NCBI GenBank assembly: GCA_000701725.1
Contig: JNJQ01000005.1
Span: 1-64,000, forward strand
Length of the DNA stretch: 64,000 nucleotides
Direction: 5' to 3'
Origin: Erysipelotrichaceae bacterium NK3D112
Lineage (GTDB): Bacteria > Bacillota_I > Bacilli_A > Erysipelotrichales > Erysipelotrichaceae
Shown: piece after piece, positions 52,187 to 62,790 of the stretch
Layout of the letters: each line of letters starts with the position of its first letter
How positions within the stretch are numbered: the stretch's first letter is position 1
Translations under genes and position numbers: made by a program
The notes under the pieces: generated by a model
Database searches by the model: none
Told to the model about the DNA's origin: nothing
What the model saw: only the letters and a program-made list of their open reading frames with translations

Positions 52187-52215
52187 TTGCAAATTTCCAC
52201 CTGTAAGCGTATATT
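52187..52215 (+). promoter_or_regulatory. Promoter of the cysK-cysE leader
   Basis: TTGCAA (52187-52192), a 17-base spacer and TATATT (52210-52215) form a good promoter. The predicted start is about 20 bases before the leader peptide ATG. Confidence 0.65.
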
Positions 52216-52243
52216 GAAGACAATCAGAAGGAAGGCGAAGGGA

Positions 52244-52309
52244 ATGATGATGAAGGGTTTCAGACAAATGAACTGCTGTTGTATGAATCAGACCCGGAGC
52301 CTGAATTGA
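52244..52309 (+). CDS. Cysteine leader peptide (three Cys codons in a row)
   Basis: This frame encodes 21 residues, MMMKGFRQMNCCCMNQTRSL plus a final Asn, then TGA. Three consecutive Cys codons lie at 52274-52282. A purine-rich site (GAAGGCGAAGGGA) precedes the first ATG. The frame lies between the promoter and the cysK terminator, and the antiterminator strand overlaps its second half. This is the layout of a classical amino-acid attenuator in which charged tRNA-Cys is sensed by translation. In other bacteria Cys-rich leader peptides before cysteine genes are known; here the reading is from sequence alone. Confidence 0.8.
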   Translation: MMMKGFRQMNCCCMNQTRSLN

Positions 52310-52388
52310 ACGCGGATTGTTTCAAAACAATCCTGAACAAAGCAGACAGATCCGGGTATGACCAAAGACATTCCCGGACTTTTCATTT
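52292..52388 (+). promoter_or_regulatory. Transcription attenuator of cysK-cysE
   Basis: There are two mutually exclusive helices. The antiterminator pairs ACCCGGA (52292-52298, inside the leader frame) with TCCGGGT (52351-52357), 7 bp. The terminator pairs TCCGGG (52351-52356) with CCCGGA (52373-52378), extended by ATG/CAT after one mismatch, and is followed by CTTTTCATTT. Between them a perfect 9-bp hairpin GGATTGTTT-CA-AAACAATCC (52314-52333) spans the gap in both states. A ribosome stalled at the Cys codons leaves 52292 free and favours reading through. A ribosome reaching the stop covers it and favours termination. Confidence 0.82.
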
Positions 52389-52414
52389 CTGACATTTTGA
52401 AAGGGGAAAATGAA

Positions 52415-53347
52415 ATGGCAAACATCTATACTTCGGTAGAGCAGCTGATCGGAAACACACCGCTGCTTGAACTCACACATTTTGAAAAAGCATATGATCT
52501 GAAGGCGTCCGTACTCGCCAAGATGGAATATCTCAACGCGACCGGCAGCGTCAAGGACAGAGTCGCACTGAATATGATTCTCGATGCTGAAGCTAAGGGC
52601 ATTCTCAAAGAAGGTTCGGTCATCATTGAACCGACCAGCGGCAACACCGGAATCGGCCTTGCGGCAGTCGGCACCTCCAAAGGCTACCGCGTGATCATCG
52701 TCATGCCGGAAACCATGAGCGTGGAAAGAAGAAAGCTCATGAAAGCCTATGGCGCTGAACTTGTCTTATCCGAAGGTTCAAAGGGAATGAGCGGCGCAAT
52801 CGCGAAAGCGGAAGAGCTGAAAAAAGAAATCGAAGGTGCCTGGATTGCCGGTCAGTTTGTCAATCCGGCCAACTGGGAAGCCCATTACAAAACAACCGGA
52901 CCGGAAATCTGGAATGACACGGACGGAAAGGTGGATATCCTTGTGGCAGGCGTCGGCACCGGCGGAACAATCACCGGAATCGGAAAATACCTGCGTGAAA
53001 GGAAATCAGATGTTAAAATAGTGGCTGTGGAACCGGACAGCTCGGCAGTATTGTCCGGTGAAAAGAGCGGACCGCATAAGATTCAGGGAATCGGCGCAGG
53101 GTTCGTTCCGGAAGTTCTCGATACAGCCATCTACGATGAGATTATCCGTGTCACAAATGAAGATGCCATCAATACCGGCGCAGAATTCGGTAAGCGCGAA
53201 GGCATTCTCGTCGGCATCTCTGCAGGCGCTGCCCTCTGGGCTGCGATCCAGCTGGCAAAGAAAGAAGAGAACGAAGGAAAGAACATTGTTGTCATTCTTC
53301 CGGACTCGGGGGACCGTTATCTGTCCACACCGTTGTTCGGAGAATGA
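52415..53347 (+). CDS. cysK: Cysteine synthase A (O-acetylserine sulfhydrylase)
   Basis: This is a 310-residue PLP enzyme that makes cysteine from O-acetylserine and sulfide in the cytoplasm. The motifs are LIGNTPLLEL, the lysine block NATGSVKDRVA (Schiff-base Lys), PTSGNTGIGLA (substrate loop), VGTGGTITGIGKYL (phosphate-binding) and VGISAGAALWAA. The start at 52415 (MANIYTSVEQLIG) has AAGGGGAAA before it. The frame from 52358 lies inside the attenuator. It is followed three bases later by cysE, which supplies its substrate. Regulation is by the leader peptide upstream. Confidence 0.95.
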   Translation: MANIYTSVEQLIGNTPLLELTHFEKAYDLKASVLAKMEYLNATGSVKDRVALNMILDAEAKGILKEGSVIIEPTSGNTGIGLAAVGTSKGYRVIIVMPETMSVERRKLMKAYGAELVLSEGSKGMSGAIAKAEELKKEIEGAWIAGQFVNPANWEAHYKTTGPEIWNDTDGKVDILVAGVGTGGTITGIGKYLRERKSDVKIVAVEPDSSAVLSGEKSGPHKIQGIGAGFVPEVLDTAIYDEIIRVTNEDAINTGAEFGKREGILVGISAGAALWAAIQLAKKEENEGKNIVVILPDSGDRYLSTPLFGE

Positions 53348-53350
53348 TAT

Positions 53351-54169
53351 ATGGGAAAAACACACACTGAAATACTGAATGAAATTCACGCGATGCGTGA
53401 GCCTGAATTAAAAGTGCCGAAGGGAATCGCCGACCGCAAAGGGGTTGTTTCACTGATCAAGGAAATCCAGGTGGTATTATTGCCGGGATATTTCAATTAC
53501 AACAATCTTTCGGTTGAGGCAGCGTTTGACTGTGTTGTAAAAGATCTCGATGAACAGGCCGGCACGGCGCTGTGCTTCAGCGGAACCAGTCCGATGAAGG
53601 CAAAAGAGCTGACTCAGAAGTTTCTGGAATCCCTTCCGGAAATCCTGAGACAGATCAATACCGATATCCAGGCGATCTATGACGGTGACCCGGCTGCCAA
53701 GACAAAGTCGGAAGTCATCATCTGCTATCCGGGATTCTATGCGATTTCCATTTACAGAATCGCCCATGTCATGTACAAGCTCGGTATTCCGTACCTGCCC
53801 CGTATCATGACTGAATATGCGCATGAAAAAACCGGAATTGACATCAACCCCGGCGCGACCATCGGCGATTATTTCTGCATAGACCACGGCACCGGTATCG
53901 TTATCGGTGAAACCGCGGTGCTCGGGCATCATGTCAAGTTATATCAGGGTGTGACCATCGGAGCCAAGAGCTTTGAGAAAGATGAAAACGGCAATCCGGT
54001 CAAAGGCGGCAAGCGCCATCCGGATATCGGAAACAACGTTGTCATCTATGCCAACGCGACCATTCTCGGCGGTGACACATACATCGGCGACAACAGTGTG
54101 ATCGGCGGAAATACCTGGATCATCGACTCGGTCGAGGAAGGCAAAAAAGTTTATTACAAAGGAAAATGA
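53351..54169 (+). CDS. cysE: Serine O-acetyltransferase (EpsC type)
   Basis: This 272-residue enzyme makes O-acetylserine for CysK. An N-terminal helical region of about 150 residues leads into the left-handed beta-helix of hexapeptide repeats: DINPGATIGDYFCIDHGTG, IVIGETAVLGHHVKLYQGVTIGA, then GNNVVIYANATILGG. The longer N-terminus and lack of the C-terminal CysK-binding tail ending in Ile point to the EpsC-like form, which is common in anaerobes. Here the chain ends VEEGKKVYYKGK. It is co-transcribed with cysK. Confidence 0.92.
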   Translation: MGKTHTEILNEIHAMREPELKVPKGIADRKGVVSLIKEIQVVLLPGYFNYNNLSVEAAFDCVVKDLDEQAGTALCFSGTSPMKAKELTQKFLESLPEILRQINTDIQAIYDGDPAAKTKSEVIICYPGFYAISIYRIAHVMYKLGIPYLPRIMTEYAHEKTGIDINPGATIGDYFCIDHGTGIVIGETAVLGHHVKLYQGVTIGAKSFEKDENGNPVKGGKRHPDIGNNVVIYANATILGGDTYIGDNSVIGGNTWIIDSVEEGKKVYYKGK

Positions 54170-62520: not shown

Positions 62521-62577
62521 TTTGTGCATGAATGGTGTAACATTAAGGAGGCAGTTCAACTGCCTCAATCAGGATAG

Positions 62578-62790
62578 TTTCAGGTGCAGCGGGATATGAA
62601 AATATCGGCCGCTTGTGAAAAGGGAAACAGGTGAAAGTCCTGTACGAACCCGTCACCGTGAACGGAGGGTGTATGCCATCATGCCATTGGGAAACTGAGA
62701 AGGCGCGCATGCACAATGCTCCGCAAGCCGGGAGACCTGCCTGAAGCTGTGCGATAGTCACGGGATACTGACTGCACGGGTGTTGTCCAT
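62578..62790 (+). promoter_or_regulatory. Cobalamin (AdoCbl-type) riboswitch
   Basis: The conserved core is present in order: AGGTGCAGCGG (start of aptamer), AAAAGGGAAACAGGTGAAAGTC, GGAGGGTGTATGCCAT, CATTGGGAAACTGAGAAGGCG and AAGCCGGGAGACCTGCC (62725-62741). Together these blocks are diagnostic of the B12 box family. The pairing TTCAGG / CCTGAA closes the aptamer at 62579-62745. A hairpin GTGC-AGTCA with TGACT-GCAC follows at about 62750-62778 and may belong to the expression platform. B12 normally switches such genes off. A separate 8-bp hairpin lies just upstream (62548-62566). Confidence 0.92.

Follow-up and report, generated by a model that had tools for sequence, protein, structure and literature searches.

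A predicted cysteine-codon-dependent transcription attenuator upstream of cysK–cysE in the Erysipelotrichaceae

Introduction

Ribosome-mediated transcription attenuation is a mechanism well known from other systems, among them the enterobacterial trp, his, and leu attenuators. A 2010 survey regarded regular leader peptides in Bacillota as something new, with His as the sole case, a leader peptide that precedes hisZ/hisS* in bacilli (PMC2965389). Cys leader peptides have been predicted in Mycobacterium, P. acnes, and B. longum, where no conserved terminator accompanies them (PMC1262725), and those of mycobacteria are reported to be cysteine-responsive (Canestrari 2020, as cited in PMC13236596). 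In Rhodobacterales, attenuation has been proposed for the uORFC-8-2 motif, which combines a Cys uORF with a terminator before cysS (PMC8632094).

Here, we analyzed a Cys-codon leader preceding cysK–cysE in a 64,000-nucleotide stretch of DNA (hereafter, the window) from Erysipelotrichaceae bacterium NK3D112. Like the enterobacterial attenuators, this locus has a leader ORF led by a Shine–Dalgarno (SD) sequence and containing a codon run for the operon's product, mutually exclusive antiterminator and terminator helices, and a spacing that suits a stalled ribosome; it differs from them in its Cys specificity, in its phylum, and in having no detectable hairpin between strands 1 and 2 that would protect strand 2 (0 of 24 loci). 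The uORF of uORFC-8-2 also carries two tandem Cys codons and is followed by an intrinsic terminator, but that motif belongs to Alphaproteobacteria and cysS and has its Cys codons inside the first stem, whereas here cysK lies downstream and no conserved stem links strand 2 to the 5′ portion of the leader. The actinobacterial leaders share Cys-run ORFs before cysteine genes, but lack a conserved terminator, are leaderless in mycobacteria, and are described as translation attenuation. The bacilli leader is likewise a case of codon-run attenuation in Bacillota, there replacing a T-box, but it is specific for His and serves synthetase paralogs in another lineage. A T-box(Cys) also senses tRNA-Cys charging; unlike the present leader, it binds the tRNA directly without translation, and it is absent at cysK.

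Results

Organization of the cysK–cysE leader

All features of the locus lie on the + strand. A sigma-70–type promoter (52187–52215) consists of the hexamers TTGCAA (−35, 52187–52192) and TATATT (−10, 52210–52215) separated by 17 nt, and most related leaders are preceded by similarly spaced hexamers (16–18 nt; for example, L002, L003, and L197). The SD region at 52230–52242 contains GGAAGG as well as AAGGG, which serves downstream in-frame ATGs, and a purine-rich SD is kept at the matching place in relatives, so that the leader ORF is, at the level of sequence, SD-led and translatable. This ORF (52244–52309) has 21 codons plus TGA and encodes MMMKGFRQMNCCCMNQTRSLN; its three Cys codons, TGC TGT TGT (52274–52282), are predicted to be regulatory. 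Strand 2, ACCCGGA (52292–52298), forms the 5′ arm of the antiterminator with strand 3, TCCGGGT (52351–52357), which is common to the antiterminator and the terminator, and strand 4, CCCGGA (52373–52378), forms the 3′ arm of the terminator. The promoter, the 21-codon leader, and the two competing helices had all been proposed in the initial annotation, which placed the strands of both helices exactly; its spacing of 10 bases between the Cys codons and strand 2 was close, although the gap is actually 9 nt.

Between strands 2 and 3, a central hairpin, GGATTGTTTcAAAACAATCC (52314–52333), is predicted by folding, and its GGATTGTTT motif is conserved among the nearest relatives; the hairpin is possibly a pause signal. 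Where a leader ORF extends through the hairpin, GGATTGTTT encodes GLF or ELF followed by a stop codon. Strand 4 is followed by C-TTTT-CATTTC, containing the U-rich tract TTTTCATTTC (52380–52389), which is weaker than that of most relatives.

The predicted regulated gene, cysK (52415–53347), encodes cysteine synthase A (TIGR01139, 436.6 bits versus a cut-off of 350.95). The second gene (53351–54169) encodes a cysE-like serine O-acetyltransferase, for which TIGR01172 was the best model, at 160.6 bits, below the equivalog cut-off of 210.7; the order cysK–cysE is found in most relatives.

Conservation of the Cys-codon run

The initial annotation had predicted that the Cys codons and both helices would be conserved in related genomes with compensating changes, and our comparison bore this out. 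Similarly placed poly-Cys leaders with two to six Cys codons precede cysK in about 45 genomes, which span four or more genera within a single Erysipelotrichaceae-type family. Across 53 runs, one per locus, TGT was used 123 times and TGC 51 times; this free switching indicates that the amino acid, rather than the DNA, is conserved. Among 57 same-genus loci, SD-preceded small ORFs with at least two consecutive Cys codons were found upstream of cysK in 22 and those with at least three in 14, compared with 0.58 and 0.02 expected, respectively, from Markov resampling. Examples from the same genus are MFSMMFMYTACCCCSEKARTCLKTGLF, MTAMLTNTCCCCKKNARRCR, and MKYTMNCCCMHCCKCTDRILMSFRIF. No leader was found at 13 cysK–cysE loci assigned to the genus of the window, a genus that apparently also holds Lactimicrobium massiliense (Erysipelotrichaceae), the species of leader L009/L039.

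We then searched with a covariance model, R1, built from 13 leaders and supplied with the terminator pairs only. R1 matched 25 genomes of the window's genus at E<1e-4, among them genomes outside the training set with Cys-run leaders before cysK (L196, L197, L187, L200, L201, and L199). Across the order, it matched 21 genomes from three other genera of this family (g23, g56, and g60) at E<1e-5, in which the Cys run can reach six codons (MKHYTVMCCCCCCSVLNEPGPIC and MFENIKHNMVCCCCCCICHSPDGSPGSF); 22 of the 23 fetched matches with Cys-rich leaders in these genera precede cysK, usually followed by cysE. At the exception, L234 (G238:C64), a poly-Cys leader, MVHMKKTICCCCICTSTRFCRPGSFQL, and a terminator stand before a membrane-protein-like ORF with no Pfam match instead of cysK.

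R1 detected no second copy in the window's own genome at E<0.05, and weaker matches there had no codon-run leader. Relatives in family f2 yielded no convincing leader before cysK; weak matches in this family (L249–L251) were inspected and rejected. A phylum-wide scan gave no solid match outside the family among those inspected.

Covariation of the antiterminator and terminator

In the alignment of 13 leaders, 90.0% of antiterminator and 90.1% of terminator positions were paired, with three doubly changed pairs in each helix. (L020 and L028 were excluded from alignment A2 because strand 3 was misplaced in the MAFFT alignment A1.) Among 44 R1-aligned leaders, the antiterminator was 86.4% paired, compared with at most 57.6% in slid controls, and the terminator was 91.7% paired, with six of its seven pairs doubly changed. 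Double-change cells numbered 20 for the antiterminator (6.4 in shuffles) and 23 for the terminator (4.6 in shuffles), values reached by 0 of 500 shuffles in either case, although these shuffle counts are not probabilities because related rows are not independent, and counts in alignment A3 lean somewhat toward the terminator, not the antiterminator, since R1 was built with terminator pairs. The changes run through all three strands: CCCGGA:TCCGGG:CCCGGA in the window is replaced elsewhere by CTCGG:CCGAG:CTCGG, CCTGG:CCAGG:CCTGG, or GACCGGA:TCCGGTC:ACCGGA.

Taken as a single locus, the window gave p = 0.002 for the 2:3 duplex; 17 of 24 loci fell below p 0.05, with a combined p of about 2e-17 over the 24 loci, which are not fully independent. 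When strands 2 and 3 were swapped between species in energy calculations, native and swapped pairs separated only partly because most species share CCGG, and pair counts were used instead. Together, these results indicate that mutually exclusive helices sharing strand 3 are maintained by compensating changes. A predicted intrinsic terminator with a U tract is found in nearly all relatives, the tract CTTTTCATTTC being weak in the window itself.

Ribosome position and RNA folding

The Cys run ends a median of 11 nt before strand 2. Placing the A site at the first Cys codon leaves strand 2 ahead of the ribosome's leading edge in 24 of 24 loci; placing it at the stop codon puts strand 2 behind that edge, again in all 24. 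The suggestion that the Cys codons stand at the distance at which a stalled ribosome leaves the antiterminator strand free thus agrees with the leading-edge geometry of every locus.

In simulations that used textbook ribosome footprint sizes and folded only RNA not covered by the ribosome, the probability of the terminator in the window was 0.34 for a stalled ribosome and 0.95 for one at the stop codon, and 27 of 29 loci changed in this direction. Before synthesis of strand 4, the stalled RNA took the antiterminator fold (−26.1 kcal/mol). At equilibrium, several loci still favored the terminator in the stalled state, suggesting that co-transcriptional kinetics must help. A 1:2 protector hairpin, in which the 5′ part of the leader would pair with strand 2, did not reach p < 0.05 in any of the 24 loci (median p 0.83).

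His-run leaders on a similar scaffold

In six related genomes, a similar scaffold carrying a His run precedes an amino-acid ABC transporter (L241:201–361 in G263:C184, L298, L300, L301, L302, and L303). L241, a weaker R1 match, contains MTLFMERRNHHHHHNDRTLCVAFFG, ACCGGACTC, and GAGTCCGGT together with a CCGG...TTTTTTG terminator, and is followed by a solute-binding protein (SBP_bac_3) and a permease of the transporter. Upstream of this transporter, other genomes carry MILVNGRRVHRHHHHNGRASSVVSLG, MQKRSEMRMHHHHHRFLINRTPVVRIF, MKLVMESRIHHHRHHCSGRTSCVVSFV, and MRKSYEMRKHHHHYLCISRTPVVRIF, and a further genus has an HRHHHHH leader upstream of an amino-acid ABC transporter. These loci resemble a family of His attenuators sister to the Cys leaders, and the leader suggests that the transported substrate is histidine. 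That a His run occupies a similar scaffold before a transporter speaks for the run being read as codons.

Other Cys leaders before cysK

Clostridial (Oscillospiraceae-type) cysK genes showed a distinct leader, M..(M/I)CCxxxCxxR...(I/L/M)P(I/V/M), with a strong terminator downstream (L054, L056, L068, L082, L261, L262, and L263); given its conserved C-terminal Pro motif, this leader could act as an arrest peptide instead of working by simple codon reading. In L068 and L062, directly before cysK, and in L054, the interval between the terminator and cysK holds another small ORF, with LL(K/R)ERC(C), which suggests tandem leaders. Leaders of the form MMCCRxLCSRA... with a CCGG terminator were found before a different cysK, a second copy without cysE in the same genus (L120, L124, L127, L204, and L209), and seem to be related to the clostridial leaders. 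In L025 and L114, a short CC leader and a GGCGG-type terminator come first, and another small ORF, containing SSCIC, then precedes cysK.

T-boxes and cysteine control in the same genome

The window's own genome contains 21 T-box matches at E≤0.001, 13 of them over the cut-off. One lies directly before cysS, and its specifier, read by us from the alignment to the family, appears to be UGC, that is, Cys. The T-box model RF00230 gave no match at the cysK locus, and no Rrf2-family protein (PF02082) was found in this 96%-complete genome, and hence no CymR. The contrast drawn in the initial annotation with the usual control of cysteine genes by T-boxes or CymR accordingly holds within this genome, in which the synthetase gene and the biosynthesis genes seem to monitor one tRNA by different means. 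On the + strand of the window, at 62565–62758, we also detected a cobalamin riboswitch (RF00174, 101 bits).

Discussion

The elements of this leader, their conservation, their covariation, and their geometry are features of the sequences themselves, and from them we infer stalling, termination, read-through, and a response to cysteine as follows. The ribosome would translate MMMKGFRQMNCCC... while RNA polymerase transcribes the leader. With ample Cys-tRNA, it would reach the stop codon (52307–52309) and mask strand 2, so that strands 3 and 4 pair and transcription stops before cysK. With scarce Cys-tRNA, it would stall at the Cys codons and leave strand 2 unmasked; strand 2 would then pair with strand 3 once the latter is made, no terminator would form, and cysK–cysE would be transcribed. 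Since no 1:2 protector hairpin was found, an untranslated leader is expected to read through, unlike that of the trp attenuator, making this a three-strand attenuator whose probable default without translation is read-through. The initial annotation called the element a translational attenuator; "translation-dependent transcription attenuator" is the proper term.

We estimate at roughly 93% the probability that the locus is a ribosome-mediated transcription attenuator before cysK–cysE that reads charged tRNA-Cys, the leader very probably deciding cysK–cysE transcription via the site at which the ribosome pauses. Were translation attenuated instead, as proposed for mycobacterial polycysteine short ORFs, a stalled ribosome would free the cysK ribosome-binding site and no terminator would need to be blocked. 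Mycobacterial Cys leaders before cys operons do lack terminators (PMC1262725) and are cited as translation attenuation in PMC13236596; here, however, T-rich tails follow strand 4 in nearly all relatives, the terminator covaries, and some 20 nt separate the end of strand 4 (52378) from the cysK SD (52400–52406), leaving this reading very improbable. We attach just as little weight to an arrest peptide, whose nascent chain would stall the ribosome on a small molecule and not through codon starvation. The C-terminal GLF or ELF residues kept before the stop in some relatives, and the conserved (I/L/M)P(I/V/M) ending of the separate clostridial leaders, would fit it, but the leader peptides vary widely apart from Cys, GLF overlies conserved DNA of the central hairpin, and the similar His-codon scaffold before a transporter fits codon reading.

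Still far less probable is an accidental overlap of a Cys-rich ORF with the helices of a T-box or metabolite riboswitch: T-boxes are frequent in the genome, with a Cys-specific one before cysS, but Rfam gave no match at this or related loci at the gathering threshold, no T-box sequence stands before cysK, and conservation follows the Cys codons and the strands. That a Cys-rich ORF merely adjoins an ordinary terminator is equally remote. Short hairpins and ORFs are common, and scanning this one locus for terminators yielded counts at the level of chance; against this, the excess of Cys-run ORFs over the resampled expectation, the combined p value of the 2:3 duplex, and the compensating changes mean that conservation already refutes chance.

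For neither Erysipelotrichia nor Clostridia did our literature search bring up anything relevant on a Cys attenuator, which agrees with the earlier view that this arrangement is undescribed in Bacillota; subscription papers lay mostly beyond the search, so priority is not proved. Within the literature searched, the Cys specificity, the regulated gene, and the lineage are, as far as we found, new, while the mechanism is known.

Amino-acid genes of Bacillota are held to be controlled mainly by T-boxes, riboswitches, and repressors. We give even odds to the idea that a modular three-strand attenuator without a protector hairpin operates across the family alongside T-boxes, accommodating a run of codons for whichever amino acid is needed (Cys for cysK–cysE, His for the ABC transporter) and reading through by default when untranslated. 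Both codon reading and the missing protector strand can be tested directly, thanks to the numerous sets of compensating sequences and to the His version. A Cys attenuator in gut Erysipelotrichaceae, together with the cysS T-box, would mean that two readers monitor one charged tRNA, one for biosynthesis and the other for the synthetase.
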